Below the pieces are notes generated by a model. It had not been told where the DNA came from and searched no databases. It saw only the letters and a list, made by a program, of their open reading frames with translations. A DNA stretch of 64,000 nucleotides, from the NCBI GenBank assembly GCA_021737645.1, contig JAIPDO010000007.1, positions 1-64,000 on the forward strand. The letters run 5' to 3'. Positions 1,782-22,021 of the stretch are shown one piece after another (position 1 is the stretch's first letter; every line of letters starts with the position of its first letter). This DNA comes from Desulfarculaceae bacterium. GTDB lineage: Bacteria; Desulfobacterota; Desulfarculia; Desulfarculales; Desulfarculaceae. Both the position numbers and the translations under genes were made by a program.

Positions 1782-2324
1782 TCAGGCCACCTCCCAGGCG
1801 CGGCCCATATCCAGGCCCTTGGCCAGTGCCGCCTTGTTCAACTCCGCGAATCGCTCGGGCACCAGGCTCACCAGAGTCCGCTCCAGCACCTCGGTCTGGA
1901 ACCAGCCGGTCACCCCGGCCACCAGGCCCACCCAGATCACGTTGGCCACCTGGCGGTTTTTGAACTCGTCCAGGGCCAGGGAGGTCACCTTGGCTCCGTA
2001 GCGGTCATGGGGAGCGTTGGGCTCCACCATGCCGGAGTCAAAGAGCACCCTGCCCTCAGGCGCTACGCCCGAGGCGTAGGTGTCATAGGCCCCTTGGCTC
2101 ATGGCCACCAACAGGTCGGGCTGCTGAACGTGGGGGTAGTCAATCTCTTGGCCATCCAGCACCAAATCGGCTCGGGCGCCCCCACCCCGGGCCTGGGCTC
2201 CGTAAGAGTTGGAGCCCGCCGCGTACAGGCCCTGATCCACCGCGGCCTGCCCCAGCAGCACCCCGGCCAAGACCACGCCCTGGCCTCCCAGTCCGGCCAA
2301 ACGAATTTCCTTGCGCTCAGTCAT
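1782..2324 (-). CDS. korC: 2-oxoacid:ferredoxin oxidoreductase, gamma subunit
   Basis: About 180 residues. The N-terminus RLAGLGGQGVVLAGVLLGQ is the signature of the gamma subunit of 2-oxoacid:acceptor oxidoreductases, followed by SYGAQARGGG, also typical. I chose the ATG at 2324 (MTERKEIRLAG) rather than the GTG three codons upstream in the ORF track. It overlaps the end of the beta gene, as expected for coupled translation. With alpha and beta it forms the TPP-dependent core that oxidatively decarboxylates a 2-oxoacid to acyl-CoA. Whether the substrate is 2-oxoglutarate, a branched-chain 2-oxoacid or pyruvate is undecided, so the symbol is provisional. Confidence 0.87.
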   Translation of the reverse strand: MTERKEIRLAGLGGQGVVLAGVLLGQAAVDQGLYAAGSNSYGAQARGGGARADLVLDGQEIDYPHVQQPDLLVAMSQGAYDTYASGVAPEGRVLFDSGMVEPNAPHDRYGAKVTSLALDEFKNRQVANVIWVGLVAGVTGWFQTEVLERTLVSLVPERFAELNKAALAKGLDMGRAWEVA

Positions 2325-3072
2325 TGAACTCACCCAACAGTAAGGTGTCCTCCGCGCCGTCCGGCGCGCAGGCCCCTTCTGCCCCGCTTTGGCATAACCC
2401 GCGCAAACGCTCGTACATGGCCCCCGCCGAGTCCAGCTTGTTGCGCCGCCCGTATTGGGTGGGACAGGGGCTCAGCACGTCAACGAAGGCGAAGTCCGGC
2501 GAGGCGATGGCTTTTTTCAGATAGCCGATCAACTCATAGGGCCGGGTAACCGCTCCCCGAGCCACGTAGGGCGCGCCCGCTCCCTTGACCAGCTTGACCA
2601 GGTCAAAGGGCCGGTAGGGGTTGCCCGTCACGCTGGTGGCGGTGAGGTGCCCCTGGGGGGTGGTGGGGGCCATCTGCCCGCCGGTCATGCCGTAGATCAT
2701 GTTGTTGGCGCAGATGACCGTAAGCTCCAGGTTGCGCCGGGCCGCGTGGATCAGGTGATTGCCTCCGATGGAAGCCAGGTCGCCGTCCCCGGAAATGACG
2801 ATCACCTTAAGCTCCGGGTTGGCCGCCTTGGCTCCGGTGGCAAACGCCACCGCGCGGCCATGCAGGGTGTGCAGGGTGTCGGCGGCGAAGTTGGGGCTGG
2901 GAATCCAGGCCGCGCAGCCGATGCCCGAAACGAACAGGGTGTTGGTCATGTCCAGCTCGAGCTGGTCTATGGCCCTGAGCAGGGAGCCCATGAGCACCCC
3001 GTGGCCGCAGCCCGGGCAAAAAGGCGTGGTCTTTACCTCGGGCCGCAGGTATTTCTCCATGGAGCGGGCCAT
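2317..3072 (-). CDS. korB: 2-oxoacid:ferredoxin oxidoreductase, beta (TPP-binding) subunit
   Basis: A 251-residue protein. FCPGCGHGVLMGSL near residue 18 is the conserved N-terminal motif. The TPP/Mg2+ motif GDGDLASIGGNH sits near residue 95, continuing into NNMIYGMTGGQMAPTTP. This size and motif set match the small beta subunits of four-subunit KOR/VOR enzymes. The start codon overlaps the alpha stop (TGATG) and the end overlaps the gamma gene, so the three are tightly coupled. It lacks the long Fe-S extension of single-chain PFOR, so the cluster is supplied by the separate ferredoxin subunit. Confidence 0.92.
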   Translation of the reverse strand: MARSMEKYLRPEVKTTPFCPGCGHGVLMGSLLRAIDQLELDMTNTLFVSGIGCAAWIPSPNFAADTLHTLHGRAVAFATGAKAANPELKVIVISGDGDLASIGGNHLIHAARRNLELTVICANNMIYGMTGGQMAPTTPQGHLTATSVTGNPYRPFDLVKLVKGAGAPYVARGAVTRPYELIGYLKKAIASPDFAFVDVLSPCPTQYGRRNKLDSAGAMYERLRGLCQSGAEGACAPDGAEDTLLLGEFND

Positions 3073-4217
3073 CAGCGCATCTCCCCCAGCGCGGCGAGAA
3101 TGCTCGCCGGGCTGATGGTGCTGCCGTTGACCTGAGTCAGCGACTTCACCGGCGTGTCTCCGGCGGCGGAGCGCACCAGGCCGTCCACTTGGCCCAGGTT
3201 CATCTCCGGCACCAAAAAGCCCTTGGCCCCCTGGGCTACCCGAGTGATCAACCCGTCGTCAAAGGGCCAGATGGTTATCAGGCGCAGCAGGCCCACGGCC
3301 AGGCCGTCCTGGCGGGCCTGGCGCACCGCGCGTAGCGCCGCCCGGGCTGTAAAGCCGTAGGCCACCACCACCAACTCGGCGTCATCCAGATAGTAGCCCT
3401 CGTGACGGCAGATCTCGGCCTTGCGGCTGAGCACCTTTTGGCTCAGGCGGCGCACCAGGCTGTCGTGGAAGGCCGGGCCCTCGGTCTTGCGATAGCCCCA
3501 CTGGTCGTGGGTGGAGCCGGTGACCAAGAGGTTCTCCCCCATCCCAAAACCGGGCATGGAGGGAATGCCGTCCGCAGCATCGCAGCCAAAGGGTGGCTGT
3601 TTGGGAACATAGTCACGGTCGTATATTTCCAGGGTCTCGGGCAGATCCACCCGCTCGCGCAGATGGCCGGTGGCCTCTTCGGCCAGCAGGAAGGCCGGCA
3701 CCCTCAGACGCTCGGCCAAGTTGAAGGCCTCAACGGTGAGGCTGAACATCTCCTGCACCGACCAGGGCGACAGGGCCACCACCTGATAGTCGCCGTGGGA
3801 GCCCCATTTCACGGCCATGATATCCCCAGCCCCCACCTTGGTGGCCTGTCCGGTGCAGGGCCCGGCCCGCTGCACGTCCACCAAGACCACCGGGGTCTCG
3901 GTGAAGGCGGCGTAGCCCAGGCACTCCTGCATGAGGCTAAGCCCCGGCCCGCTGGTGGCGGTCATGGCCTTGGCCCCGGACCAGGAAGCGCCCACCACCG
4001 ATGAGATGGAGGCAATCTCGTCCTCCATCTGCATGAAGGCGCCGCCCCTGGGAACCAGCTCCCGGCTCATGTACTCCATGATTTCCGAGGAGGGGGTGAT
4101 GGGGTAGCCGCCGTAGTAGCGGCAGCCGGCGGCAATGGCGCCCTCGGCGGCGGCATCGTTGCCTGATAAATAGCGTGAGCCCGCTTTCACGGGATTGGTC
4201 ACCGTAGTCAATGGCAT
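3072..4217 (-). CDS. korA: 2-oxoacid:ferredoxin oxidoreductase, alpha subunit
   Basis: About 381 residues starting at MPLTTVTNPVKAGSRYL. The PITPSSEIMEYM motif and the EDEIASISSVVGASW segment are typical of the pyrimidine-binding alpha subunit of KOR/VOR enzymes. The ORF track begins 23 codons earlier, but those codons are basic and low-complexity, whereas the ATG at 4217 lies behind a GGGAAAGGG ribosome-binding site. A promoter with good -35 and -10 boxes lies about 140 nt upstream. First gene of the operon. It would give low-potential electrons and acyl-CoA to, or recover them from, the surrounding acyl-CoA pathways. Confidence 0.9.
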   Translation of the reverse strand: MPLTTVTNPVKAGSRYLSGNDAAAEGAIAAGCRYYGGYPITPSSEIMEYMSRELVPRGGAFMQMEDEIASISSVVGASWSGAKAMTATSGPGLSLMQECLGYAAFTETPVVLVDVQRAGPCTGQATKVGAGDIMAVKWGSHGDYQVVALSPWSVQEMFSLTVEAFNLAERLRVPAFLLAEEATGHLRERVDLPETLEIYDRDYVPKQPPFGCDAADGIPSMPGFGMGENLLVTGSTHDQWGYRKTEGPAFHDSLVRRLSQKVLSRKAEICRHEGYYLDDAELVVVAYGFTARAALRAVRQARQDGLAVGLLRLITIWPFDDGLITRVAQGAKGFLVPEMNLGQVDGLVRSAAGDTPVKSLTQVNGSTISPASILAALGEMR

Positions 4218-4355
4218 GACCGGACCCTTTCCCAAAAATAAGAGCTGCCAGGCCCGGTTGGGCCTTGGCCCGGGCCGCTTCCGCACGGCAGCGCCCGGCT
4301 GTTATACGCGTTATTTCAGCGTGTTACACACTACATTCAAAACAATATATCATAT

Positions 4356-4521: not shown

Positions 4522-6042
4522 CTAGAACGTAATGTCTCGCAATTGCCTCTTGAGCACCTTGCCCGAGGCGTTGCGGGGCAGCTCATCCACGAAATCCACC
4601 CGCTTGGGCTTTTTGTAGCTGGCCAGGTTTTGTTTGCAAAACTCGATCACCTCCTGGCTGCTCAACTTTTTGCCAGGCATGGTGACCACGAAAACCCGGG
4701 CGCTCTCGCCCCAGGTGGGATCGGGCATGGCCACCATGGCCGCTTCCAAAATATCCGGATGGGTGGCCAGGACCTCCTCCACCTCCCGGGGGTAGATGTT
4801 TTCGCCGCCACTGACAATCATGTCCTTTTTGCGGTCCACGAAGAAAAAGAAGCCTTCTTCGTCCATGTAGGCCAGATCGCCGGTGTGCAGCCAGCCCTTG
4901 CGAAGGGCCTTGGCGGTGGCCTCGGGGTCGTCGTGGTATCTGGGCATCACGTTGGGACCACGGCACACGATCTCGCCCACCTGGCCCACCGGCGCTTCCC
5001 GGTCGTTTTCGTCGAATACGCGCACCTCCGAAAAAACCACGGCCCGGCCAATCGAACCGTCCTTGCGCAGGCAGTCACGACCCTTGAGGATGGTAGCTAC
5101 CGGCGATACCTCGGTGCAGCCGTAGATGTCGTAGAGGCCATCGATGTTGGGGAAAAACGCCATAATCTCTTTTTTGGTGGCCACGGAAAGCCGGTCCGCG
5201 CCCACGGTGCACTTGGTAACCGAGGTGGTATCGTACTTGTCCGCCCCCGGATGCCGCAGCAACAGGTTGTACATGGCCGGGGAACCGGAGATAGTGGTGA
5301 CCCGCTCGCGCTCGATGCACTCCAAGACCATTTGCGGCTCGAACTTGACCGCCAAGATGCAGGTGCCGCCCAGAGCCAGTTGCACGGTTAGGTGGTGGTT
5401 GAGCGGCGCGCTGTGGTGCAAGGGGCCCACGATGATGGCCACCTGCCCGGCATCGTCGTCGCGGCCATGGATGATGTTGACCGCGTTCCAGAGAATATTG
5501 CGGTGGGTGAGCACTGCGCCCTTGGGCTTGCCGGTGGTGCCGGAGGTGTAGATGATCTGGCAGGTATCGTCCTCACCGATTTGGCTGGAGGTTGGCGTAT
5601 AGGCGCCGCCCTGCAAAAAGTCCTCGTAGTCCAGAGCCGCGCCCCCGACAGGCGAGCCGGGGCACAAAAACAGCCGCACCGTTTGCAGGTGCTCCCTGAT
5701 GCCGTCCAGCACCCCGGTGAACTCGGGACCGTGAATCAGGGCCTTGGCCTGGGAGTTTTCCAGGATAAAAACGATCTCGGGACCAACCAGGCGGAAGTTG
5801 ACCGGCACCGCCACCATCCCCACCCTGGTCAGGGCCAAGTAAGATTCCACGAAGTAGTCGGTGTTGTGGGACAGCAGGGCCACCCGGTCGCCCGGCTTGA
5901 GGCCTTGGTTCAGCAAGGCCCCGGCCAGCCGACCCGCCCTGTCGTCCAACTCGGCGTAGGTGCGCCTGGTCTCACCGCTGACCAGTGCCGTCCGCCCGCC
6001 GTATTTGGCCACCGTGTTGTCTAAGATACCGCCTAAGTTCAC
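4522..6042 (-). CDS. Acyl-CoA synthetase (AMP-forming, class I adenylate-forming family)
   Basis: A 506-residue protein activating a carboxylic acid to its CoA thioester through an acyl-adenylate. The P-loop reads IIYTSGTTGKPKGAV near residue 170. The A5-like motif is YDIYGCTEVSP, the hinge GWLHTGDLAYMDEEG, and the C-terminal lysine motif PRNASGKVLKRQLRD. Length fits medium/long-chain or aryl-CoA ligases, and no membrane segment is visible. The start is a GTG preceded by GGGTGGTGCGGT. It is the last gene of the minus-strand run that continues up to 16.7 kb, separated from the preceding dehydrogenase by a hairpin. Substrate is not readable. Confidence 0.88.
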   Translation of the reverse strand: MNLGGILDNTVAKYGGRTALVSGETRRTYAELDDRAGRLAGALLNQGLKPGDRVALLSHNTDYFVESYLALTRVGMVAVPVNFRLVGPEIVFILENSQAKALIHGPEFTGVLDGIREHLQTVRLFLCPGSPVGGAALDYEDFLQGGAYTPTSSQIGEDDTCQIIYTSGTTGKPKGAVLTHRNILWNAVNIIHGRDDDAGQVAIIVGPLHHSAPLNHHLTVQLALGGTCILAVKFEPQMVLECIERERVTTISGSPAMYNLLLRHPGADKYDTTSVTKCTVGADRLSVATKKEIMAFFPNIDGLYDIYGCTEVSPVATILKGRDCLRKDGSIGRAVVFSEVRVFDENDREAPVGQVGEIVCRGPNVMPRYHDDPEATAKALRKGWLHTGDLAYMDEEGFFFFVDRKKDMIVSGGENIYPREVEEVLATHPDILEAAMVAMPDPTWGESARVFVVTMPGKKLSSQEVIEFCKQNLASYKKPKRVDFVDELPRNASGKVLKRQLRDITF

Positions 6043-6162: not shown

Positions 6163-7311
6163 CTAGCGCTTTTTCAAAAGGTTGCGGGCTATGACCAGGC
6201 GCATGATCTCGTTGGTGCCTTCGTATATCTGGGTGATCTTGGCGTCGCGCATGTGGCGCTCCATGGGGTATTCCTTGCAATACCCGTAACCACCCAGTAT
6301 CTGCACACCCTCCACCGCGGCGGACATGGCTGCATCGCTGGCGAACATCTTGGCCATGGCCGAGTTTTTCTCGAAGTGCCCGTGCTGGTCTTCCATCCAG
6401 GCCGCCTTGAGCAGCAGCAACTCAGCCGCCTCCAGCGATGTGGCCATGTCGGCCAGCTTCCATTGGATGGCCTGGAAGGCGGATATGGGACGCCCGAACT
6501 GCTCGCGCTCCCCGGCGTACTGCACCGCCTCTTCCAGCACCGCCTTGCCGATGCCCAGGGCCTGGGAACCGATGCCGATGCGCCCGCTGTCCAGGGTGGT
6601 GAGCATCTGCCTGAGGCCCGCGCCCGGCTCACCCAGGATGTTGTCCTTGGGAATGCGCGCGTCTTCGAACACCAACTCCGATGTGCCCGAGGCGCAGATG
6701 CCCATCTTGTCTTCCACCCGACCCACGGAAAAACCGGGGGTGTTCTCCAAGTCCACGATGAACGAACTGATGCCCTTGGCCCCGGCGTCTTTGTCGGTCA
6801 CCGCCGCGATCACCGCGTAGGAGGCCACGTTGCCGTTGGTGATGAACTTCTTTTCGCCGTTGAGCACCCACTGATCGCCGTCCAAGACCGCGGTGGTGCG
6901 CAGGGATGCGGGGTCGCTGCCCGCTCCGGCCTCGGTAAGGCCGTAGCAGCCGATCTTGGCTCCGCTGGCCACGGGGCTGAGGAAGGCTTTTTTCTGCTCC
7001 TCAGTGCCAAAGGTCATCACCGGGAAGCAGTACAGGGAATTGTTTACGCTCATGATCACGCCCACGCTGGCGTCGCCCCGGGAAATCTCGCTCAGAGCCA
7101 GCACGTAGGACACATAATCCATGCCCGCGCCGCCATACTCCTCAGGCACCGCGATACCCATGAAGCCCAGCTCACCCAGGGCGGCACAGGCCTCGGCCGG
7201 GTGCTCGTGGTTCTCGTCGAAATGTGCCGCCTTGGGCTTGAGGTCATCGTCGGCGATGCGAGCCGCCGTCTCCTTGACCATCTGTTGTTCTTCCGTAAAT
7301 GCGAAATTCAT
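6163..7311 (-). CDS. Acyl-CoA dehydrogenase (short/medium-chain type)
   Basis: A 382-residue flavoprotein with the usual ACAD layout: N-terminal helical domain, central beta domain with GLTEAGAGSDPASL and NGEKKFITNG, and C-terminal helices. The catalytic glutamate is in the usual place, in IYEGTNEIMRLVIAR near the C-terminus. The family oxidises an acyl-CoA to the trans-2-enoyl-CoA and passes electrons to ETF. It is separated from the 3-hydroxyacyl-CoA dehydrogenase gene upstream by a hairpin, so it may be expressed at lower level than the main operon. Confidence 0.92.
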   Translation of the reverse strand: MNFAFTEEQQMVKETAARIADDDLKPKAAHFDENHEHPAEACAALGELGFMGIAVPEEYGGAGMDYVSYVLALSEISRGDASVGVIMSVNNSLYCFPVMTFGTEEQKKAFLSPVASGAKIGCYGLTEAGAGSDPASLRTTAVLDGDQWVLNGEKKFITNGNVASYAVIAAVTDKDAGAKGISSFIVDLENTPGFSVGRVEDKMGICASGTSELVFEDARIPKDNILGEPGAGLRQMLTTLDSGRIGIGSQALGIGKAVLEEAVQYAGEREQFGRPISAFQAIQWKLADMATSLEAAELLLLKAAWMEDQHGHFEKNSAMAKMFASDAAMSAAVEGVQILGGYGYCKEYPMERHMRDAKITQIYEGTNEIMRLVIARNLLKKR

Positions 7312-7464: not shown

Positions 7465-8337
7465 CTAATCTATGCGCTTGCCGTCCTTGTCGTAGTCGTA
7501 CCAGCCCTTGCCGGTCTTGCGGCCCAGGTGCCCGGCCTCCACTTTGCGCCGGAGAATGGACGGCGGATAGAAGCGCGGGTCTTTTTCCTCGTCATACACG
7601 TTAGTGTAGGCCATGAGCTGCACATCCAGGCCCACCAGGTCCGAGGTCTCCAAGGGGCCCATCTTGCGGCCGAAAGCCAGGCGGAAGCCGGTGTCGATGT
7701 CCTTGGGGGTGGAGACTTTCTGCTCCACCAGGCGGTAGGCCTCCATGTTGAGCAGCATATTGCAGCGGTTCAAGATGAAACCGGCGATGTCGCTGTCCAC
7801 CCGGATGGGCTCCTTGCCCAAAAAGCGGACGAACTCCACCCCGGCGGCCATGGTCTCTTCGCTGGTGGAGATACCCTTGATCACTTCCACCGCGTTCAGC
7901 ATGGGCACCGGGTTGAAGAAGTGCAGGCCCAGCACCCGCTCGGGATGCTCCAGCCCACCGCCGATGGCGCTGATGGGAATGGCCGAGGTGTTGGAAGCCA
8001 ATAGGCACTGGGCGCTCACGGCCTTCTCCAATTTGCCGAAGACGTCCCTCTTCACCTCGATGCTCTCGAACACCGCCTCCACCACCAGGTCGGCGTCGGC
8101 GCCGGCGGCGTAGTCTTGGCTGGCGGTGATGCGCCCCATCACCGTGTCCTTGTCATCGGCTATCTTGCCTTTGTCGGCCAGCTTGCCCACCGACCAGGCG
8201 ATGGTCTTTAGGGCCTTGTCCAGCATCTCCTGAGAAACGTCGGTCATCACCACCTGCAAGCCGGACTGGGCGCAAACCTGCACGATTCCCGAGCCCATGG
8301 TCCCGCAGCCCACCACCATTACTTTCTTGATATTCAT
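7465..8337 (-). CDS. 3-hydroxyacyl-CoA (3-hydroxybutyryl-CoA) dehydrogenase
   Basis: A 290-residue stand-alone L-3-hydroxyacyl-CoA dehydrogenase. The NAD-binding motif VMVVGCGTMGSGIVQVCAQ is at the N-terminus. The active-site histidine and asparagine are in GLHFFNPVPMLNAVEVI, and the second asparagine is in GFILNRCNML. It oxidises 3-hydroxyacyl-CoA to 3-ketoacyl-CoA with NAD+. The ATG lies behind GGAGGG. It is 39 nt downstream of the thiolase gene, so the two steps are co-transcribed. A second, more divergent paralogue lies at 57630-58508. Confidence 0.93.
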   Translation of the reverse strand: MNIKKVMVVGCGTMGSGIVQVCAQSGLQVVMTDVSQEMLDKALKTIAWSVGKLADKGKIADDKDTVMGRITASQDYAAGADADLVVEAVFESIEVKRDVFGKLEKAVSAQCLLASNTSAIPISAIGGGLEHPERVLGLHFFNPVPMLNAVEVIKGISTSEETMAAGVEFVRFLGKEPIRVDSDIAGFILNRCNMLLNMEAYRLVEQKVSTPKDIDTGFRLAFGRKMGPLETSDLVGLDVQLMAYTNVYDEEKDPRFYPPSILRRKVEAGHLGRKTGKGWYDYDKDGKRID

Positions 8338-8376: not shown

Positions 8377-9564
8377 CTACCCCTTTTCGTTGCCCAAGAT
8401 GGCCACCGCGCTGATCTGGGGCGGGCCGCCAAAGGTGTGGGACAGCCCCAGGCGCGGGTTCTTCACCTGGCGTTCAGGGTTGTCCACCTTTTGTTGCAAC
8501 TGCTTGTATATCTCATAGGTCATGCGCAGGCCGCTGGCCCCAATGGGGTGGCCGAAGCACTTGAGCCCGCCGTCGATGTTCACCGGCAGGCCGCCACCGA
8601 TCTCGAAAAAGCCGGAACGGATGTCCTCTATGGCCCCGCCGGGCTTGCTGAACCCGAAGTTCTCGTAGATGGCCAATTCGGTGATGGTGAAGCAGTCGTG
8701 CACCTCGGCCAGGTCGAGTTCCTCGCGGGGGTTGGTGATGCCGGCCATCTCGTAGGCCTTCTTGGATGAGTTCATCAGGGCCCCGAAGTGAATCCAGTCG
8801 AAGTTGGGGCGCAAATGGGGCATGGTGGAATCCATGGCCACGCCCACGCCCTTTAGGTATATGGGGTCGTCCCGGAAGTTCTTGGCCATGTCGGCCCGGG
8901 TGACGATGGCGCAGGCCGCGCCGTCGCTGTTGCCGCAGCAATCGAAAAGGCCCAAAGGCCAGGCGATCACCGGGGCGGCCAGCACTTTTTCCAAAGGCAC
9001 CTTGTTGTGGAAATGGGCCTTGGGGGCGCGGCTGCCGTTATCGTGGTTCTTCACCGCGATGCGGCCGATAAGCTCCTTGCCTTCCTCGTTGCTAAGGCCG
9101 TACTCCTGGAAATAGCGCTTGGCGATGAGCGCGAAGGAGCCGGGCGCGGTGCGCCGGGCCTCCAGCACCGGGTTCATGCCCCGGCCCATGCCCAGACCGG
9201 CGTATCCGGTGTCCTTGAGCTTTTCCACGCCCAAAGCCATGACCACGTCGTACATGCCGCTGGCCACGGCCATGCAAGCCTCGAACAGGGCGATGTGCCC
9301 GCTGGTGCACCAGTTCTCGTTGCGGATGATGGGAATGTCGCGCAGTTTGAGGGCGTCGGCCGCCGCCGAGGAGCCGGTGCCGCCCATGGGGGCGTACACC
9401 GTGCTGAAGAAGCAGGCCTCGATATCCTCGGGCCCTACCCCCGCGTCCTTGAAAGCTTCGCTGGAAGCCTCGATGGCCAGGTCGCTCATGCCGGTGTCCC
9501 AGCGCTCGCCAAACTGGCTGCACCCCATGCCGATGATCGCTACTTTGTCCTTTATGCTACCCAT
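8377..9564 (-). CDS. SCP2/archaeal-type thiolase
   Basis: A 395-residue thiolase of the SCP-2/acetyl-CoA acetyltransferase branch. The nucleophilic cysteine lies in NENWCTSGHIAL (Cys86), the ECH-like histidine segment is EVHDCFTI, and the GHP motif is KCFGHPIGASG. This branch is known to work with DUF35 zinc-ribbon/OB-fold partners, as in the archaeal thiolase/HMG-CoA synthase complex and in BbsAB of anaerobic toluene degradation. The upstream neighbour, 13 nt away, carries exactly such a DUF35 domain, so a complex is likely. It should cleave a 3-ketoacyl-CoA with CoA; the chain is unknown. ATG behind GGGGAG. Confidence 0.87.
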   Translation of the reverse strand: MGSIKDKVAIIGMGCSQFGERWDTGMSDLAIEASSEAFKDAGVGPEDIEACFFSTVYAPMGGTGSSAAADALKLRDIPIIRNENWCTSGHIALFEACMAVASGMYDVVMALGVEKLKDTGYAGLGMGRGMNPVLEARRTAPGSFALIAKRYFQEYGLSNEEGKELIGRIAVKNHDNGSRAPKAHFHNKVPLEKVLAAPVIAWPLGLFDCCGNSDGAACAIVTRADMAKNFRDDPIYLKGVGVAMDSTMPHLRPNFDWIHFGALMNSSKKAYEMAGITNPREELDLAEVHDCFTITELAIYENFGFSKPGGAIEDIRSGFFEIGGGLPVNIDGGLKCFGHPIGASGLRMTYEIYKQLQQKVDNPERQVKNPRLGLSHTFGGPPQISAVAILGNEKG

Positions 9565-9577
9565 GATATTCTCCCCG

Positions 9578-10981
9578 CTACCTCACCGGCCGGCATTTCC
9601 AGAAGTAGTTGTGGAACCCACCCAGATCGTGCATGCGGCGCAGGGTGAGCTTAACCGGCGTGCCCAGTTCCACACTGGTGGGATCGGCGTCGGTCATCAG
9701 GCCGTAGAAACGGGCCCCGTTTTCCATCTGCACCACGGTCTGCACTATCACCGGGTCGTCGGGCCTTCCGGCCAGATTGTCCCGGCTGAAGGTGAAGACC
9801 TCTCCGGCCATGCCGCTCAGACGCACCGTGTCAAACTGGTCCACGCTGCGGCAGTTGTCGCAGATGCGCTGGATGGGGAAGGCCGCAGTGCCGCACTCCC
9901 GGCACTTGCTGCCCCGGCAGCGCAACAGGGAGTCGCGTTCCCGCCAGGTCACAGTGGCCGAGGGCACCAGGCGAAAAGGTTCGCCCGGCTGCGGCTCCAC
10001 CAGCCCGTTGAAGCTGAGGAAGCGTGCATAGGAGTTGATGGCGCGGCGGCTCTCCAGCTGCTGGAGCACACTCACCGCGGGCAGGACCGGCTGGGCCTTC
10101 ACCTCGAACAACAGGGCCTGAGCACCGTCGCCGTAGGCGGCCACCAGAATCTTTTCGCCGGGCTGGGCTTGCTCCAAGACGGCGGCCATCATCACCAGCG
10201 GATGGGCCGTCCCGCAGAACCCGACCGTCTCCAAAAGGGAGTCCACGGCCTGGCCCGCATCGTTAAGCCCGGTTTTCTTCAATATTCCCATGGCCGAACG
10301 GGGGTCCGGCGCGGGGATGATGGCCTTGGCGATGTCCTCGGACTTCAGGCCCATCTTGCTCATCAGGCCCTTTACCGCCTGGGCAGTGACCCGGAGGTAG
10401 CCCTCGCCGGTGACGAAGCGGCCTTCCCAGGACTGCACGTAGGTGTCCTCCTGAGTGCGCCACACATCATTGATCTCGTCGGTTACCGCGTAGCCACCCA
10501 GGTAGGCCACCGGCGCATCGCCGCCGCCCACCAAGACCGCCGCCCCGGCGTCGCCGAAGAGCTGCTCCTGGTCGGAGCGGGGATAGCCCAGGCGCTTCTC
10601 GCCGGAGGCCACCAGCACCTTGCCATCGCCAGCGGTGTCCAGGGCCAGTTTCAATGCGCCCAGCCCGGAACGCAGGGAGTTACCCAGGTCCAGGGTCTCC
10701 ATATTGCCTCCAAGGTCCAGGACCGTGGCCAACATGGCAGCGGTGGCCTTTTCCTTGTAAGGGGCGGTGGTGGAAGCGAAATATAGCGCCTGCACCCCGT
10801 CGCGCCCTCCGGCCTCCAGGGCAGCCCCGGCGGCCTCGGCGGCCATGGTCAGGGAGTCCTCGTCGCTGCCCGCCACGCTGCGGCAGCCTTTTTGGGCGCC
10901 CCGCTCCCAAGCCCCCCCGATGGTTTTTCGCTCAATCTTGAGATAGGGAATATGAGCAGCGGCTGTAAAAATGCCCGCCAT
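9578..10981 (-). CDS. HMG-CoA synthase-like domain fused to a DUF35 zinc-ribbon/OB-fold domain
   Basis: A 467-residue fusion. Residues 1-300 resemble the HMG-CoA synthase/KAS III fold of archaeal type (SGEKRLGYP, FGDAGAAVLVGG, AAYGDGAQALLF). Residues 355-377 form a zinc ribbon (CRECG then CDNC), followed by an OB-fold to the end. By my alignment the synthase nucleophile Cys is Ser102 (LDLGNSLRSGLG) and the catalytic His region is IIPAPDPRS, so the Claisen chemistry is probably lost. The gene directly precedes the thiolase, and in archaea these three parts form one complex that channels the CoA intermediate. Here it probably acts as a substrate-binding or scaffold partner of the thiolase. RBS GGAGG. 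Confidence 0.8.
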   Translation of the reverse strand: MAGIFTAAAHIPYLKIERKTIGGAWERGAQKGCRSVAGSDEDSLTMAAEAAGAALEAGGRDGVQALYFASTTAPYKEKATAAMLATVLDLGGNMETLDLGNSLRSGLGALKLALDTAGDGKVLVASGEKRLGYPRSDQEQLFGDAGAAVLVGGGDAPVAYLGGYAVTDEINDVWRTQEDTYVQSWEGRFVTGEGYLRVTAQAVKGLMSKMGLKSEDIAKAIIPAPDPRSAMGILKKTGLNDAGQAVDSLLETVGFCGTAHPLVMMAAVLEQAQPGEKILVAAYGDGAQALLFEVKAQPVLPAVSVLQQLESRRAINSYARFLSFNGLVEPQPGEPFRLVPSATVTWRERDSLLRCRGSKCRECGTAAFPIQRICDNCRSVDQFDTVRLSGMAGEVFTFSRDNLAGRPDDPVIVQTVVQMENGARFYGLMTDADPTSVELGTPVKLTLRRMHDLGGFHNYFWKCRPVR

Positions 10982-11027: not shown

Positions 11028-12677
11028 TTAGATGGTTCGAACCGGCTGATACTCGCCAAATACCTCGCGCAGCACGCCGCAGATCTCGCCCAAGCTGGCG
11101 TAGGCCTCCACCGCCGCGATAATCACCGGCATCAGGGCTCCGTCGCCCTGGGCGTTTTGTTTGAGAGCGGCCAAGGCGCCGTCCACCTTGTCCTGGCTGC
11201 GCCGACTCTTCAGGGCTTGCAGCCGCTGAATCTGGTCCTGCTCCGCCTGGGGGTTGGACTCGACCAAAACCTCTTGCTCGTCTTCCTCGATGGCGTACTT
11301 GTTCACGCCCACCACCACCTGTTCGCCGAGCTCGACCTCTTTCTGAATATCGTAGGCCCGGCGCTCGATCTCTTTTTGCACGAAGCCCTTTTCGATGGCT
11401 TCCACCGCGCCGCCCATTTCCTGGACCTCGGCCATCAGCTCCTTGATGCGCGCGTAGAGCTGGTTGGTCAGGGCTTCCAGGTAATAGGAGCCGCCCATGG
11501 GGTCTATGGTGTCGGTGACCCCGGTCTCCTCGCGCAGTATCTGCTGAGTGCGCAGGCTGGTGCGCACCGATTCCTCGGTAGGCAGGCTGAGCGCCTCGTC
11601 GTAGGAGCAGGCGGCGATGGACTGAGCCCCGGCCAGCACCGCGGCCAGAGTCTGGTAAGCCACCCGCACCACGTTGTTCAGGGGCTGTTGGGCGGTCAGG
11701 CTGGCTCCGCTGGTCTGGGTGTGGAAGCGCAGCATGCACGAACGCGGGTCCTTGGCGCCAAAGCGGTCCCTGAGCATCTCGGCCCAGATGCGCCGGGCAG
11801 CCCGGTATTTGGCCACCTCTTCGAAAATCTTGTTGTTGGTGTTGAAAATCCAGCTGATGCGCGGAGCGAACTTGTCGATATCCAAACCAGCCTCAAGACC
11901 GGCCTCGATGTAGGCGATGGCGTTGCTGAAAGCAAAGGCTATTTCCTGTACCGCCGAACAGCCCGCCTCTCGCATATGGTAGCCGGCCACGTTGATGGTG
12001 TTGAAGCGCGGCGCGTTATTGCTGCAATAGGCGAAGATATCGGTGACCAGCCGGATGGACGGCTTGGGCGGGAAGATGTAGGTGCCCCGCACCGTGTACT
12101 CCTTGAGCACGTCGTTTTGCAGGGTGCCCCGCAGCACCTTGGGCTCCAGGCCCTGCTTCTTGCCGATGCTCACGTACATGGCCAACATGATGGCCGAGGG
12201 CGCGTTGATGGTCATGGAGGTGGAAAGCTTGTCCAGGGGCAGGCCCTCGAAGATAACCTCCATGTCCTCCAGGGTGTCAACCGGCACCCCCACCTTGCCC
12301 ACCTCTCCGGCGGACATGGGATGGTCCGAGTCGTAGCCGATCTGGGTGGGCAAATCGAAAGCCACGCTCAGGCCGGTCTGACCCTGCTCCAGCAGATAGC
12401 GGAAGCGGGCGTTGGTGTCTTTGGGCGAGTCATAGCCCGAATACTGGCGCACCGTCCAGGGGCGGCCCAGGTACATGCTGGGGTACACCCCGCGCGCAAA
12501 GGGATGCTCGCCGGGGAAGCCCAACTGCTCAAGGTAGTCCTGTTCCTGCACGTCGGCGGGAGTGTAGAGGCTCTCCACCGGGTCTCCCCAGTCGGTGTGG
12601 CGGGGAGACAACTTTGCCAGACCGGGGTCGCTTTGGGCCCACCTGGCTTTTTCTACTTTTATCTTGTTCTGGTCCAT
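11028..12677 (-). CDS. Methylmalonyl-CoA mutase-type large subunit (separate from B12 domain)
   Basis: About 549 residues: the TIM-barrel substrate domain of a cobalamin-dependent acyl-CoA mutase with no B12 domain. Relative to P. shermanii mutase, Tyr89, Arg207 and His244 are matched by Tyr79 (WTVRQYSGYD), Arg197 (YTVRGTYIFPP) and His234 (GYHMREAG). Tyr and Arg at these positions bind the free carboxylate of methylmalonyl-CoA; isobutyryl-CoA mutases carry Phe and Gln. The substrate should therefore be a CoA dicarboxylate: methylmalonyl/succinyl or an alkyl homologue. I prefer the ATG at 12677 (RBS CGGAG) to the GTG two codons upstream. The B12 subunit gene is 25 nt upstream. No MeaB-type chaperone or epimerase is present in this window. 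Confidence 0.9.
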   Translation of the reverse strand: MDQNKIKVEKARWAQSDPGLAKLSPRHTDWGDPVESLYTPADVQEQDYLEQLGFPGEHPFARGVYPSMYLGRPWTVRQYSGYDSPKDTNARFRYLLEQGQTGLSVAFDLPTQIGYDSDHPMSAGEVGKVGVPVDTLEDMEVIFEGLPLDKLSTSMTINAPSAIMLAMYVSIGKKQGLEPKVLRGTLQNDVLKEYTVRGTYIFPPKPSIRLVTDIFAYCSNNAPRFNTINVAGYHMREAGCSAVQEIAFAFSNAIAYIEAGLEAGLDIDKFAPRISWIFNTNNKIFEEVAKYRAARRIWAEMLRDRFGAKDPRSCMLRFHTQTSGASLTAQQPLNNVVRVAYQTLAAVLAGAQSIAACSYDEALSLPTEESVRTSLRTQQILREETGVTDTIDPMGGSYYLEALTNQLYARIKELMAEVQEMGGAVEAIEKGFVQKEIERRAYDIQKEVELGEQVVVGVNKYAIEEDEQEVLVESNPQAEQDQIQRLQALKSRRSQDKVDGALAALKQNAQGDGALMPVIIAAVEAYASLGEICGVLREVFGEYQPVRTI

Positions 12678-12702
12678 GGACACAGCTCCGCTCTCCCGGC
12701 TT

Positions 12703-13101
12703 TCAGCTCAGGGACACGTTGTTCCTGATGAACTCGGCAATTTCGGTCATGGTGGTGCCGGGCCCGAAGATTTCCTTGACGCCTTTTTCCCTGAGGGCCA
12801 CGCGGTCCTTGGGTGGCACGATGCCCCCGGCCACCAACAGAATGTGGGCCGCGTCCTTTTCGCGCAATAGCTGGGCCACCCGGGGCAGGTGTTGGTTGTG
12901 GGCTCCGGACAAGGTGCTCAGGGCGATGACGTCCACATCCTCCTGCATGGCGGCGGCCACGATGGCTTCGGGAGTCTGGCGCAGGCCGGTGTAGATTACC
13001 TCCATGCCCGCGTCCTTGAGACCGGCGCAAACCACCTTTATGCCGCGGTCGTGCCCGTCCAGGCCGGGCTTGGCCGCCAGAACTCGAATACGTTTACTCA
13101 T
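12703..13101 (-). CDS. Cobalamin-binding small subunit of the acyl-CoA mutase
   Basis: About 132 residues forming only a B12-binding Rossmann domain. The DxHxxG cobalt-ligand motif is [12 protein letters not shown], with STLSGAH and VAGGIVPP completing the nucleotide-tail pocket. It is the partner of the large subunit encoded immediately downstream; split mutases are usual in archaea and many anaerobes. The ATG at 13101 ([11 protein letters not shown]) follows AAGGAG; the ORF-track start three codons earlier is a TTG. Interconverts a branched and a linear CoA dicarboxylate with the large subunit. Confidence 0.93.
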
Positions 13102-13134
13102 GACTATCAAGCTCCTTTTACCTACAGGCCCGGC

Positions 13135-14676
13135 CTACAGGGGGACGTTGCCGTGCTTGCGCCACGGTTTGGGTTCCTGCTTGTCCTCCAGGGACTGGAG
13201 GGCCTGCACCAGATAGCGCCGGGTGTCGCCGGGCAGGATCACCGCATCCACATGCAGCTTTCTGGCCACGTTGTAGGGGTTGGCGAACTTCTCCCGGTAC
13301 TCCTCGATCTTGGCCTGGCGGGTGGCCTCGGGGTCGTCGGACTTGGCGATGTCCTTGGCGTAGACGATATCCACCGCGCCCTCGGCCCCCATCACCGCCA
13401 CCTCGGCCGAAGGCCAGGCCCACACCTGATCCGCACCCAACTGCTTGGAACACATGGCCTGATAGGCTCCGCCGTAGGCCTTGCGCAAAATGATGGTGAT
13501 CTTGGGGACCGTGGCCTCGGAGTAGGCGTAGATCATTTTGGCCCCGTGGCGGATGATGCCGCTGTACTCGTGCTTGACCCCGGGCAGATAGCCCGGCACG
13601 TCCACCAGGCTCACCAGGGGGACGTTGAAGGCGTCGCAGGTGCGAACGAAGCGGGCGGCTTTGTCCGAGGCGTCGCTGTCCAGGGCCCCTCCCAAATGGC
13701 GCGACTGGTTGGCGATGATGCCCACCGAGCGCCCGGCCACCCGGCCGAAGCCGACCACGATGTTGGGCGCGTACAGGGCCTTGATTTCCATGAAGTCGCC
13801 GCCGTCGACCAGGCGGGAGATGACCTCGCGCACATCGAAGAACTTTTTGCGGTCCTCGGGGATGAGCTTATGGATATCCTCGTCAAAGGGCGCCTCGTCC
13901 GAGGCGTCCAAGAGCGGAGGGGCGTTACGAGCGTTGCTGGGCAAGAAGGATAGCAGTCGCTTTGTCTGCTCCAGGCAGTCATGGTCGTCCTTGGCGGCCA
14001 GGTCGCAGTTGCCCGATATCTTGGTGTGGATGCGTGGCCCGCCCAGTTTTTCCATGGTCACGTCTTCGCCGGTGACCGACATGATGACCTTGGGGCCGGT
14101 GATGAACATGTATGAGGTCTTTTTGACCATGAACACGAAGTCGGTCATGGCCGGCGAATAGACCGCGCCACCGGCGCAGTTGCCCATGATCAGAGAGATC
14201 TGGGGCACCACCCCGCTGGCATTGACGTTGCGCTTGAAGATGAGGCCGTACCCGGCCAGGCCCTCTGCGCCTTCCTGCACCCTGGCCCCGGCCGAATCGT
14301 TTATGCCCACGATGGGGGCCCCGGCCTTGACCGCCAAGTCCATGATGGTGCAGATCTTCTGGGAGTGCATGTCCCCCAAGCTGCCGCCCATTACCGTGGC
14401 GTCCTGGGCAAAAGCGAAGACCGTGCGGCCGTCCACCTTGCCGTAGCCGGTCACCACGCCGTCGCCGGGCATATGTTTTTCTTCCAGGCCAAAATCGCGG
14501 CAGGTGTGGTCGGTCAACAAGCCCACCTCGATGAAGGTGTCCTTGTCGAACAGGAAGTCCAAGCGCTCCCGGGCGGTGAGCTTGCCTTTGGCGTGCTCCC
14601 GCTCGATGCGCTTGATCCCGCCTCCCAGACGATGCTCTTGGTTCTTCTGCTCGAGCTGCTCGATGAAATGATCCAT
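13135..14676 (-). CDS. Biotin-dependent acyl-CoA carboxyltransferase (propionyl-CoA carboxylase beta / methylmalonyl-CoA decarboxylase alpha)
   Basis: A 513-residue carboxyltransferase with two crotonase-fold halves. The acyl-CoA oxyanion segments are GINDSAGARVQEG and NCAGGAVYSPA in the first half, and VDVPGYLPG with LRKAYGGAYQAM in the second. It moves CO2 between carboxybiotin and an acyl-CoA. No biotin carboxylase, biotin carrier or Na+-pump decarboxylase subunits occur in this window, so it must use partners encoded elsewhere. Placed 33 nt upstream of the mutase small subunit, it most likely carboxylates propionyl-CoA or decarboxylates the malonyl-type product of the mutase. Confidence 0.9.
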   Translation of the reverse strand: MDHFIEQLEQKNQEHRLGGGIKRIEREHAKGKLTARERLDFLFDKDTFIEVGLLTDHTCRDFGLEEKHMPGDGVVTGYGKVDGRTVFAFAQDATVMGGSLGDMHSQKICTIMDLAVKAGAPIVGINDSAGARVQEGAEGLAGYGLIFKRNVNASGVVPQISLIMGNCAGGAVYSPAMTDFVFMVKKTSYMFITGPKVIMSVTGEDVTMEKLGGPRIHTKISGNCDLAAKDDHDCLEQTKRLLSFLPSNARNAPPLLDASDEAPFDEDIHKLIPEDRKKFFDVREVISRLVDGGDFMEIKALYAPNIVVGFGRVAGRSVGIIANQSRHLGGALDSDASDKAARFVRTCDAFNVPLVSLVDVPGYLPGVKHEYSGIIRHGAKMIYAYSEATVPKITIILRKAYGGAYQAMCSKQLGADQVWAWPSAEVAVMGAEGAVDIVYAKDIAKSDDPEATRQAKIEEYREKFANPYNVARKLHVDAVILPGDTRRYLVQALQSLEDKQEPKPWRKHGNVPL

Positions 14677-14685: not shown

Positions 14686-15837
14686 CTAGAATCCACACTC
14701 TTTGGAGATGACGATGCGTTGCACCTCAGAGGTGCCCTCTGTCACGGTGTACAGGCGGCCGTCGCGCCAGTGACGCTGGATGGGGTACTCCATCATGTAG
14801 CCGTAGCCGCCATGGATCTGCATGCCGGTGTTGGTGATATTCTGCAGAAGCTCGGCGCAGAACAGCTTGACCATGGAGGATTCCTTCTTCACGTTGGCCC
14901 CGGCCTCGTACAAACGAGCCACCCGCCACACGTAGGTGCGCATCACGTCGATGTAGGTGGCCATCTCGGCCAGTTTGAAGGAGGTGTTCTGGAACTTGAT
15001 GATGGGCTTGCCGAACTGAACCCGTTGCTTGGCGTACTCCACGCTGAGGTCGTAGGCCGCTTGCGCGGTGCCCAGGCAGCGGGCTCCGTAGGTGATGCGC
15101 CCGGAGATCAGGATGTCCTCCAGTTGCTGGAAGCCACCGCACTCCTTGCCGCCGATGAGGTTTTCGGCCGGTACCCGGCAGTCCTCGAACACCAGTTCGC
15201 CGGTCTCGGCGGCGTGGTTGCCCACCTTGTCCAGCTTCTTGCTCACCGTGAAGCCCGGGGTGCCCTTGTCCACCAGGAACAGGTTGATGCCCAGGCCCCG
15301 TTTGTCGGGCTGGGTGTAGGCGGCCACGATCACGTAATCGCAGATGGGCGCGTTGGTGATGAACATCTTGGTGCCGTTGATCACGTATTCGTCGCCATCG
15401 CGCACCGCGCGGGTCTGAATGGAGGCGGCGTCGGAGCCCACGTTGGGCTCGGTAAGCCCGAAGGCTGCGATTTTTTTGCCCTGGATGGCCGGAATCAGGT
15501 ACTTCTCTTTTTGTTCCTGGGAGCCGTGCAGAAAGATGGGCATGGTGCCAAGGCCGCTGTGGGCCACGATGGCCCCGCAGAAACCGGCGTTTATCCGGCA
15601 AACCTGCTCGATCATGATGCACTCGCTGAGCTTGTCCGCGCCGCCGCCGCCCAACTCTTCGGGGTAGCGGGGGCACAAAAAGCCCATCTCGGCCATCTTG
15701 GTGAACAGAGCCAGGGGAGTGTGCCCCGTCTCTTCAGCCTCGTCTACCATGGGGGCCAAGACCTCGTCGGCGAAGTCGGCCATCATATCCTGGAATATTC
15801 TCTGCTCTTCGGTGAGCTCGGAGGTGTTGTATTGCAT
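14686..15837 (-). CDS. Acyl-CoA dehydrogenase
   Basis: About 383 residues with complete ACAD features: GLTEPNVGSDAAS, NGTKMFITNA, and the catalytic Glu in TVTEGTSEVQRIVISK near the end. It resembles the anaerobic acyl-/glutaryl- and benzylsuccinyl-CoA dehydrogenase-like group as much as butyryl-CoA dehydrogenase; I cannot separate them by eye. I set the start at the ATG (15837), one codon inside the GTG of the ORF track, behind GAGGCAGTG. It lies nine bases from the carboxyltransferase gene, firmly within the operon. Confidence 0.9.
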   Translation of the reverse strand: MQYNTSELTEEQRIFQDMMADFADEVLAPMVDEAEETGHTPLALFTKMAEMGFLCPRYPEELGGGGADKLSECIMIEQVCRINAGFCGAIVAHSGLGTMPIFLHGSQEQKEKYLIPAIQGKKIAAFGLTEPNVGSDAASIQTRAVRDGDEYVINGTKMFITNAPICDYVIVAAYTQPDKRGLGINLFLVDKGTPGFTVSKKLDKVGNHAAETGELVFEDCRVPAENLIGGKECGGFQQLEDILISGRITYGARCLGTAQAAYDLSVEYAKQRVQFGKPIIKFQNTSFKLAEMATYIDVMRTYVWRVARLYEAGANVKKESSMVKLFCAELLQNITNTGMQIHGGYGYMMEYPIQRHWRDGRLYTVTEGTSEVQRIVISKECGF

Positions 15838-15889
15838 CACTGCCTCACTTGGTTTTTTTTAAATAGTCGTATGTCTAGGGCAAGGTGCT

Positions 15890-16675
15890 TTACTTGCCCT
15901 GGAATTTCGGCTCACGTTTTTCAAACAGCGCCTTGATGCCCTCTTGGCGGTCCTCGCTGGTGAACAGCAGGCACTCCACCATGGCCTCGTAATCCAGCCC
16001 GGCCCTGAGCCCGGTTTCCTGGGAGGCGTTGATGGCCTTTTTGGCCCATTTGAGGGCCAGGCTGCTCTTGGCCGCGATTTTTTTGGCCACGGCCATGACC
16101 TGCTCCTCAAGCTCATCCGCCGGGTAGACCTGGTTGACGATACCCAAGCGCAGGGCCTCGTCGGCCTTGATGAACTCGCCGGTGAAGATAAGCTCCTTGG
16201 TCTTGGCCACCCCCACCAAGCGGGGCAGGCGCTGGGTGCCCCCGCCTCCGGGCATGATGCCCAGGCGTATCTCGGGCAGGCCCATCAGGGAGCGATCCGA
16301 GGCAAAGCGCAGGTCGCAGGCCAGGGCGAACTCAAGCCCGCCGCCCAGGCACAGGCCGTCGATCATGGCGATCACCGGGCGGTCCAGGCGCTCGAACTGG
16401 GAGTAGAAACCCTGTGCAAGGGTGTCCATGAAGTTTTCCATGTCCAAGGGGCTGTACTTGGCCAGTTCCTTGACGTCCGAGCCGGCCACGAAGGCCTTGT
16501 CACCGGCCCCGGACACCACCAGAACCCTTATAGACGGGTCACCCTGCACCTTGGCCAACACGTCGGCCATTTCCAGGCGGGCGGCCCGGTTGAGGGCGTT
16601 GCGCACCTCGGGCCGGTTGATGACGAGTTGGCCGATGCCCTCCCGGACCTCAAAAATGATGTTTTGATACTCCAT
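15890..16675 (-). CDS. Enoyl-CoA hydratase (crotonase)
   Basis: About 261 residues. The oxyanion-hole segment AFVAGSDVKEL, the first catalytic Glu in LGGGLEFALACD and the second in GLPEIRLG are all present, so it should hydrate trans-2-enoyl-CoA. The C-terminus FEKREPKFQGK is typical. The ATG at 16675 (MEYQNIIFEV) sits behind GGGGAAAC; the 33 extra codons of the track are not conserved-looking. First gene of the minus-strand operon that runs through the dehydrogenase, carboxyltransferase, mutase, fusion, thiolase and 3-hydroxyacyl-CoA dehydrogenase. Confidence 0.93.
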   Translation of the reverse strand: MEYQNIIFEVREGIGQLVINRPEVRNALNRAARLEMADVLAKVQGDPSIRVLVVSGAGDKAFVAGSDVKELAKYSPLDMENFMDTLAQGFYSQFERLDRPVIAMIDGLCLGGGLEFALACDLRFASDRSLMGLPEIRLGIMPGGGGTQRLPRLVGVAKTKELIFTGEFIKADEALRLGIVNQVYPADELEEQVMAVAKKIAAKSSLALKWAKKAINASQETGLRAGLDYEAMVECLLFTSEDRQEGIKALFEKREPKFQGK

Positions 16676-16791
16676 ATTGTCTGTTTCCCCGCTCAAGATC
16701 TGTTTTGGTGTCGAGCTTTGCCGGTGCTTGCGGCAGCCACATCCCGTGTCGGCTGCGTCACTGCCGTTTATCATAAATATGATTTTATATT

Positions 16792-16902: not shown

Positions 16903-17604
16903 CTATTGGTAAAATCCGGTTTCTTGACGATATTCCAGGGCGCGGGTTATTCGTTGCTTGCTGGCCGCGATGTGCTTGCTGGTGGTTTCGATCGCGGTTT
17001 GGGCGTCTCTCCTGCCCAGGGCATCCAATATTTTCCGGTGCTCGGCGGATACTTCCCGCACTTGGGGCGCTTCCAAATATTCAGGGGGGTATTTCAGGTA
17101 CAGTTTTTCATAAATATCGCCGAGCATGGTGTTAATGACATCGTTGCCCGAGTATTCGGCCAGCTTAAGATGGAAGCGTGCATCCACCAAAATGATCTTC
17201 CGGTTGGGGCCACCCGCGGCTTCACGGTTGTATTTGCGAAAAAGAACCTTGATTTCCTCGATGTCCGACATGGTGATGTTCTCGATGATCTGGGGGATTA
17301 TGTAGCGTTCAAGAGCCTCGCGGGCCTCGTAGAGTTCCATGGCTTCTTCTTGGGTGATCTCACCCACGAAATACCCTTTATTGGGTATGTAGTTGACAAA
17401 GCCGTTGGCCTCCAGGCGATTGAGGGCCTGAATCACCGGAGTGACGCTGGTATCGATTCGTTTGCTTAGGTCGCTGTAAATAATTTTTTGGCCGGGCGCC
17501 AGCTGGTTCAGGTAGATCATGTTTTTGATACGCCTGTGGGCCTCCTCGATGGCCATGCCCCTTTTGCCCGTTGTTATCCCTTGGCCTTTGCTTTTTACAG
17601 CCAT
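16903..17604 (-). CDS. GntR family regulator with FCD domain (paralogue 1)
   Basis: About 233 residues. An N-terminal winged helix (LSKRIDTSVTPVIQALNRLE, wing NYIPNKGYFVG) is followed by an all-helical FCD ligand domain with the expected metal/ligand residues in LVDARFHLKLAE, EHRKILDALGRRD and HIAASKQR. FCD regulators sense small organic acids or acyl-CoAs and usually repress. It shares long near-identical stretches (LNQLAPGQKI, VTPVIQALNRLEA, PNKGYFV) with the genes at 30307 and 38042. I prefer the ATG at 17604 to the GTG four codons upstream. It is divergent from the PaaK-like gene, with tandem palindromic sites in between, so it is a candidate owner of that operator. Confidence 0.9.
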   Translation of the reverse strand: MAVKSKGQGITTGKRGMAIEEAHRRIKNMIYLNQLAPGQKIIYSDLSKRIDTSVTPVIQALNRLEANGFVNYIPNKGYFVGEITQEEAMELYEAREALERYIIPQIIENITMSDIEEIKVLFRKYNREAAGGPNRKIILVDARFHLKLAEYSGNDVINTMLGDIYEKLYLKYPPEYLEAPQVREVSAEHRKILDALGRRDAQTAIETTSKHIAASKQRITRALEYRQETGFYQ

Positions 17605-17807
17605 TTTGTTTATCACCTTTTCGCACCGTCATTATTATCGTATATTTGATTTTTATTTTAATTATATTATACTCGACCGGCAAGTAATTAATTGAGGCAA
17701 CGCCACGACGATATATACTGAGTCATTTCTACTAATTATATGATGCACCCACGCAAGAGTTCGTGCGGTGCTGTTGGTCATCCCACACATTAAGGAATAA
17801 AAAATGA

Positions 17808-22002: not shown

Positions 22003-22021
22003 TCGCTCGACAACCGTCAAG

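Follow-up and report, generated by a model that had tools for sequence, protein, structure and literature searches.

The locus studied here raises the question of what a protein resembling HMG-CoA synthase does in a bacterium when it is fused to a DUF35 domain and encoded next to a thiolase. We analysed the first 64,000 nucleotides of contig JAIPDO010000007.1 from a Desulfarculaceae bacterium (called the window here). The initial annotation had located the two open reading frames correctly, including their strand; 13 bp separate the fusion gene from the thiolase gene, and both are on the minus strand. The features of the pair are listed below.

9578..10981, minus strand: fused pseudo-HMG-CoA-synthase/DUF35 protein, 467 aa (phmmer; AlphaFold2 model)
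10094..10981, minus strand: HMG-CoA-synthase-like domain, aa 1–296, predicted to be catalytically dead (phmmer with 6esq_I, PhlA and MucA; Foldseek)
9581..9952, minus strand: DUF35 domain (zinc ribbon plus OB fold), aa 344–467 (profile and phmmer matches)
9851..9904, minus strand: C4 zinc ligands Cys360, Cys363, Cys374 and Cys377 (C-x2-C-x10-C-x2-C), invariant in 68 of 68 relatives
8377..9564, minus strand: SCP2-type thiolase, 395 aa, with Cys86, His289-Asp-Cys291-Phe and Gly-His339-Pro (NF004810)

The proposed fusion of an HMG-CoA-synthase-like domain to DUF35 was borne out by phmmer searches. Residues 4–327 match 6esq_I, the HMG-CoA synthase chain in the archaeal 6ESQ complex (E 8e-24); residues 345–466 match 6esq_E, the DUF35 subunit of the same complex (E 2e-10). 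Residues 34–289 also match PhlA-type subunits (E 6e-23 and 1e-20). The Pfam matches of the fused protein are weak and under the cut-off (21.6 against 27.1 for OB_ChsH2_C), and the cut-offs of the HMG-CoA synthase families are missed as well (148.5 of 244 bits for NF003274 and 117 of 353 bits for TIGR00748). The C-terminal part was assigned to DUF35 by the invariant cysteine set of the zinc ribbon followed by the OB fold that matches 6esq_E. The AlphaFold2 model, built from a 39-sequence alignment, has a pLDDT of 89.5 and a pTM of 0.91. Foldseek placed its N-terminal part in the HMG-CoA synthase fold, with a TM score of 0.89 (normalised to the target) and an rmsd of 1.9 Å to 6esq_I. The synthase of 6ESQ/6ET9 ranked first, then PhlA, its CsATase equivalent and MucA, and free-standing HMG-CoA synthases came after these. 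The nearest folds, those of 6ESQ, PhlA and MucA, are all synthase subunits of thiolase/DUF35 complexes.

We then aligned the synthase domain to the archaeal enzyme, and the three catalytic columns correspond to the following codons.

10673..10675, minus strand: Leu103, in the column of the catalytic Cys114 of archaeal HMG-CoA synthase (alignment)
10769..10771, minus strand: Thr71, in the column of the catalytic Glu82 (alignment)
10313..10315, minus strand: Pro223, in the catalytic His column, within the PAPDP motif (alignment)

The alignment around the nucleophile is free of gaps (archaeal DLEFA-C114-KAG against DLGNS-L103-RSG). Ser102, which the initial annotation took for the nucleophile position, is therefore one residue off and lies opposite the archaeal Ala113. 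Its reading of PAPDP in the catalytic His region was right, and its wider claim that the synthase lacks its nucleophile is strengthened, with Glu and His replaced in addition. Across 68 relatives, the nucleophile column holds Leu in 53, Gln in 6, Ile in 3, Thr and Met in 2 each, and Ser and Ala in 1 each; Cys occurs in none. The Glu82 column is Thr in 65 of the 68, none has His in the catalytic His column, and all keep the four zinc cysteines. Five further members encoded on plasmids, two of them haloarchaeal, have neither Cys nor Glu in the catalytic columns; the Haladaptatus member does carry His at the catalytic His position, and zinc cysteines have been lost from the Variovorax member. Judged by these residues, the synthase domain is catalytically dead.

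Compared with three close relatives, the dN/dS of the dead domain is 0.12–0.13 and that of the thiolase is 0.04–0.08; the domain is thus maintained by selection, yet it drifts faster than its neighbor. Several of its residues are highly conserved (DED 40–42, Y75, K78, D98, R104, W174 and R175). The fusion retains two residues of the archaeal synthase, a CoA-using enzyme, that PhlA replaces, namely Trp174 and Arg188; this is suggestive of a kept CoA contact. The domain appears to be a case of an enzyme fold stripped of its chemistry and retained within the substrate chamber of another enzyme.

The adjoining gene had been called an SCP2-type thiolase, and the protein indeed scores 511 bits against a cut-off of 403 for NF004810 (PRK06157). 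C86, H289-D-C291-F and GH339P are invariant across all aligned partner thiolases, so that the enzyme looks active from its residues. Its best solved relatives are the archaeal AACT 6ESQ_A and other archaeal thiolases, then BbsB and SCP2 thiolases. The sequence scores are 211 bits for archaeal AACT, 145 for BbsB and 94–100 for PhlC. The AlphaFold model of the thiolase is of moderate quality (pLDDT 79.7), and its structural matches are 7YVY, 4YZO, 6ET9, SCP2 thiolase and BbsB. We built a tree of 64 sequences, comprising 56 fusion-partnered thiolases, five paralogues from the source genome and three solved archaeal thiolases. The 56 partnered thiolases, which come from several phyla, form one group with support 100/100; several of the other rows are long-branched, and this grouping is the only result taken from the tree.

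The recurrence of the fusion exceeds chance, and the protein is not peculiar to the source bacterium. A scan of genome contigs gave 36 loci, among others in Desulfobacterota, Chloroflexota, Actinomycetota, Nitrospinota and Sporomusa, and about 35 homologues came up directly. The architecture is present in 92 of 297 sampled Desulfobacterota genomes (31%), with five copies in some. A further 62 plasmid records have a match, from sphingomonads, Rhodococcus, Variovorax, Azoarcus, a Mycobacterium avium plasmid and haloarchaea, so that Proteobacteria and haloarchaea are also among the carriers. Among the 59 loci with over 900 bp of sequence available downstream, the thiolase gene lies directly downstream of the fusion in 57, at a median gap of 12 bp; the two haloarchaea that we inspected have the thiolase gene immediately upstream. 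This conserved pairing could partly reflect operon inheritance rather than contact. The pair recurs in clusters for the breakdown of fats, steroids and aromatics in many bacteria and some archaea, and the neighbors in the annotated relatives that we inspected are mostly catabolic acyl-CoA genes.

Some relatives encode longer chains. In eight of nine long-frame Desulfobacterota loci, the chain measures 788–917 aa and a separate thiolase gene follows downstream. Pfam matches for three of the eight chains comprise the synthase C-terminal domain, DUF35 and an SDR dehydrogenase, and in one of them SCP2 too. The extension of the same chain by SDR and SCP2 in some relatives ties the family to the step that makes 3-ketoacyl-CoA. 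A fusion of the dead synthase to the thiolase itself was considered and rejected, since the long frames are SDR or SDR-SCP2 fusions. No Pfam family matches the long N-terminal part of the L071 chain, and this part may result from a wrongly called start.

The pair is part of a longer run of genes in the window, whose other members are given here.

16903..17616, minus strand: GntR/FCD regulator at the head of the run, conserved in relatives (neighborhood comparison)
15890..16774, minus strand: enoyl-CoA hydratase (family profiles)
14686..15840, minus strand: acyl-CoA dehydrogenase 2, short-chain type (profile and homology)
13135..14676, minus strand: carboxyltransferase of the propionyl-CoA carboxylase beta/MmdA family (profile and homology)
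12703..13110, minus strand: B12-binding mutase small subunit (family profiles)
11028..12683, minus strand: methylmalonyl-CoA-mutase-type large subunit with Tyr81 and Arg199, human Tyr110/Arg228 (alignment)
7465..8337, minus strand: 3-hydroxyacyl-CoA dehydrogenase (family profiles)
6163..7311, minus strand: acyl-CoA dehydrogenase 1 (family profiles)
4522..6042, minus strand: AMP-forming acyl-CoA ligase (family profiles)

The order of the run is thus regulator, hydratase, acyl-CoA dehydrogenase, carboxyltransferase, small and large mutase subunits, fusion, thiolase, 3-hydroxyacyl-CoA dehydrogenase, acyl-CoA dehydrogenase and ligase. The stretch from the GntR gene to the 3-hydroxyacyl-CoA dehydrogenase gene is kept in four related loci (L004, L005, L006 and L073), in which the fusion is 73–91% identical. 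In methylmalonyl-CoA mutase, a Tyr/Arg pair binds the substrate carboxylate. The neighboring mutase has this pair and is of the methylmalonyl-CoA mutase type; 2-hydroxyisobutyryl-CoA mutase has Ile and Gln at these positions. Other relatives carry a second mutase type, 39–42% identical, upstream of the fusion and with the same pair. Since at least four more mutase-like genes are present in the source genome, the mutase in the run need not be the general methylmalonyl-CoA mutase. Loci such as that of Sporomusa have the fusion and the thiolase without mutase or carboxyltransferase, which indicates that the substrate varies. When the loci were read by eye, a neighboring gene looked like one for a MeaB-type chaperone in L009, L012 and L019, and L019 also has an apparent methylmalonyl-CoA epimerase gene.

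On this evidence, the fused protein probably belongs to a degradative thiolase complex as its non-catalytic subunit; the plan would be that of the archaeal complex and PhlABC, with the A and B parts in one chain. This reading draws on the dead synthase and intact zinc ligands throughout the 68 relatives, the invariant thiolase residues, the close pairing of the genes and the single thiolase clade. It draws equally on the nearest folds, the confident two-domain model and the low dN/dS of the dead domain. A precedent is PhlABC, in which a dead synthase and a DUF35 protein are needed while the reactive residues lie only in PhlC. PhlA is an HMG-CoA-synthase homologue without the Cys and Glu, all three proteins must be co-expressed, and the PhlA and PhlC sites share one cavity that is closed by PhlB (PMC6392133). 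According to the accounts of the archaeal complex in this paper and a second one, DUF35 holds the thiolase and the synthase together and the CoA site is common to both; the synthase is active, with Cys114 and Glu82 (via PMC6392133).

By analogy, Cys86 of the thiolase would take the acyl group from a 3-ketoacyl-CoA, with His339, His289 and Cys291 serving as acid/base residues and CoA completing the thiolysis, so that all the chemistry would be done by the thiolase. The DUF35 part would dock the thiolase, and the dead synthase part would form a wall of the shared CoA/acyl chamber and a scaffold for the dimer. The complex itself, the chamber or channel role and the direction of thiolysis are what we infer from these comparisons.

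As for the substrate, a short α-methyl 3-ketoacyl-CoA, e.g. 2-methylacetoacetyl-CoA, is our tentative candidate. The hydratase, dehydrogenases, carboxyltransferase and mutase share the run in related genomes, and the mutase has the Tyr/Arg pair. A substrate of this kind could be made by the acyl-CoA dehydrogenase, the hydratase and the 3-hydroxyacyl-CoA dehydrogenase of the run. The propionyl-CoA released by the thiolase would then pass through the carboxyltransferase and the mutase to succinyl-CoA. A thiolase that releases propionyl-CoA would account for the carboxyltransferase and mutase travelling with it, and an α-methyl 3-ketoacyl-CoA would be the simplest substrate to do so. We also considered a branched-chain 2-oxoacid oxidoreductase as the entry point. 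The ketoacid oxidoreductase genes at 1782–4286 are a better match to the 2-oxoglutarate type and adjoin the run only in the close relative L004; that entry point was rejected, and the isoleucine idea is thereby left without this support.

The same genes can be read in another order, in which the run degrades a substituted succinate: the mutase would give an alkylmalonyl-CoA, the carboxyltransferase would decarboxylate it, and one round of β-oxidation would end in the thiolase, as in anaerobic alkane degradation. The mutase, carboxyltransferase, dehydrogenase, hydratase, hydroxyacyl dehydrogenase, thiolase and ligase all have a place in such a sequence, and the mutase carries the residues of carboxylate-type substrates. 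We nevertheless regard it as unlikely. The sole glycyl radical enzyme of the genome is closer to hydroxyproline and glycerol dehydratases (369 and 347 bits) than to MasD and the benzylsuccinate synthase TutD (189 and 166 bits), and within the genus, a genome assembled as one contig contains the run but no PFL-like gene at all. These glycyl-radical-enzyme searches make an alkylsuccinate pathway improbable; uptake of ready-made substituted succinates may still provide an entry to the run.

Two further alternatives concern the pair itself. It might act in biosynthesis or acyl transfer, in the manner of PhlABC or MucABC, and form C–C bonds instead of cleaving them, given that the three-part make-up with a dead synthase is the same and the matches to PhlA profiles equal those to the archaeal synthase in strength. 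The mostly catabolic neighbors in the annotated relatives inspected, the retained HDCF and GHP motifs of SCP2-type thiolases and the closer similarity of the thiolase to archaeal AACT and BbsB than to PhlC make this very unlikely. That the fused protein is still active with some other chemistry, e.g. as a hydrolase or transferase for acyl-CoA that relies on other residues in the synthase pocket, is highly improbable; the strong conservation of many synthase-domain residues would fit such an enzyme, but the nucleophile and the His/Glu set are gone in all 68 relatives, and PhlA is non-catalytic in acyl transfer (PMC6392133). A non-catalytic subunit of a degradative thiolase thus stays our preferred reading.

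Among known systems, the archaeal complex 6ESQ has all three parts in common with the pair described here, and it provides the closest synthase fold and a thiolase that is 37% identical. It differs in having an active synthase and separate chains and in serving mevalonate synthesis. The benzoylsuccinyl-CoA thiolase BbsAB (PDB ID: 7PXP) is also a catabolic SCP2-type thiolase with a DUF35 partner, but it has no synthase domain, and the proteins of the window fall well below the NCBIfam cut-offs for BbsA (23 of 250 bits) and BbsB (164 of 750 bits). In the aldolases Ltp2-ChsH2 and Sal-Shy, too, a thiolase-fold enzyme goes together with a DUF35 domain that is itself fused to a second enzymatic domain; there, the fused domain is a hydratase and not a synthase, and the reaction is a retro-aldol cleavage with altered catalytic residues. 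Lignin VceA/VceB was rejected as a known member, as the published accounts consulted give no link to a thiolase or DUF35.

The estrogen-degrading edc cluster contains an HMG-CoA synthase homologue, EGO55_13555, beside a thiolase; its authors considered an anabolic reaction senseless there and could not assign the gene (PMC7793797). The gene order of this cluster in Novosphingobium tardaugens is the same as that around L075 on a Novosphingobium ES2-1 plasmid, which is 35% identical to the fusion, lacks the Cys and has a thiolase gene next to it. By gene order and through this relative, EGO55_13555 is a likely member of the fusion family, which offers it a role as a thiolase subunit; the substrate would be an estrogen-derived CoA ester. 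We see an even chance that the family arose once and forms a class of catabolic thiolase complexes found across many bacterial phyla and in haloarchaea, with the fusion as the substrate-holding subunit. The substrates would range from short branched acyl-CoAs to estrogen-derived acids, and the presence of a synthase gene in the edc cluster would be explained.

In the relatives that we looked at, the annotation goes no further than "OB-fold domain-containing", "zinc ribbon", "ACP synthase III C-terminal" or "HMG-CoA synthase", and the last label would wrongly imply mevalonate chemistry. Reading the protein as a second subunit of the thiolase gives genes in many degradation clusters, including the edc synthase gene, a testable role. 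Thiolases of such pairs may appear inactive when they are expressed without their partner.

The closest parallel in make-up is PhlABC, the 2,4-diacetylphloroglucinol acyltransferase of Pseudomonas (PDB ID: 5M3K), which likewise has a dead synthase, a DUF35 protein and an active thiolase-fold subunit; here too, a dead synthase, DUF35 and an active-looking thiolase-fold subunit are encoded together. MucABC of Streptococcus macacae (PDB ID: 9VBO) has homologous subunits, with a Glu aligned at the nucleophile column. In both systems the chains are separate, whereas here they are fused into one, and the dead nucleophile column holds Leu here and Gly or Glu in PhlABC/MucABC. PhlABC transfers acyl groups without CoA in an (A2C2)2B4 assembly, whereas the context here suggests CoA catabolism. 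A 2010 paper drew attention in general terms to fusions of DUF35 with thiolase-superfamily domains and regarded PhlA as inactive (PMC2954200); an open-access literature search found no description of the fused family or its role. The suggestion that a synthase fold has been reused beside a thiolase holds insofar as the dead domain is under selection, its partner thiolase looks active and the settings are those of acyl-CoA catabolism. Such an arrangement has a precedent, however, as PhlABC already combines a dead synthase with a thiolase-fold subunit and DUF35. What is new, as far as we found, is the fusion into one chain, the catabolic CoA setting and the breadth of the family.

The run (GntR regulator through mutase, fusion and thiolase to acyl-CoA ligase) is flanked in the window by divergent neighbours at 18001-24777. 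These include the following genes:

within 18001-24777, PaaK-like CoA ligase of 400 aa
within 18001-24777, second enoyl-CoA hydratase
within 18001-24777, acyl-CoA dehydrogenase
20272-21513, plus strand, lipoate-protein-ligase-like gene
22491-23585, minus strand, lipoate-protein-ligase-like gene

Similar genes border the run at loci L004, L005, L073 and L015.

DUF35 thiolases are close to mutases at three places in the window's genome. On contig 100 (L100:6288-13843), a further run comprises a B12 mutase, an SDR, a standalone DUF35, an SCP2-type thiolase, hydratases and an apparent MeaB gene. The mutase there has neither of the carboxylate-binding residues (the Tyr/Arg pair). Elsewhere, a mutase-like protein (L016:1450-3135) has other sequence in place of the usual Arg/Tyr region. 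Contig 92 of the window's genome encodes a glycyl radical enzyme (L063:868-3903) that is of hydroxyproline/glycerol dehydratase type. Its additional N-terminal stretch of approximately 200 aa had no match in Pfam. Of three further genomes from this genus, two carry PFL-like genes with comparably long frames.

The fusion family, a dead HMG-CoA-synthase-like domain joined to DUF35, has a homologue in Novosphingobium ES2-1 (L075:7995-9398), where the surrounding gene order agrees with that of the estrogen edc cluster described in PMC7793797, whose authors left the corresponding HMG-CoA synthase gene without assignment. The Variovorax member (L098:5974-7464) has lost several of the DUF35 zinc cysteines. 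In many Desulfobacterota, the chain is extended by an SDR dehydrogenase, in some cases with an SCP2 domain as well (identified by Pfam in L064, L067 and L069, and judged from length in L065, L066, L068, L070 and L072), and a separate thiolase gene follows. These extended chains, together with the thiolase gene, recall peroxisomal multifunctional enzyme 2 and SCPx.
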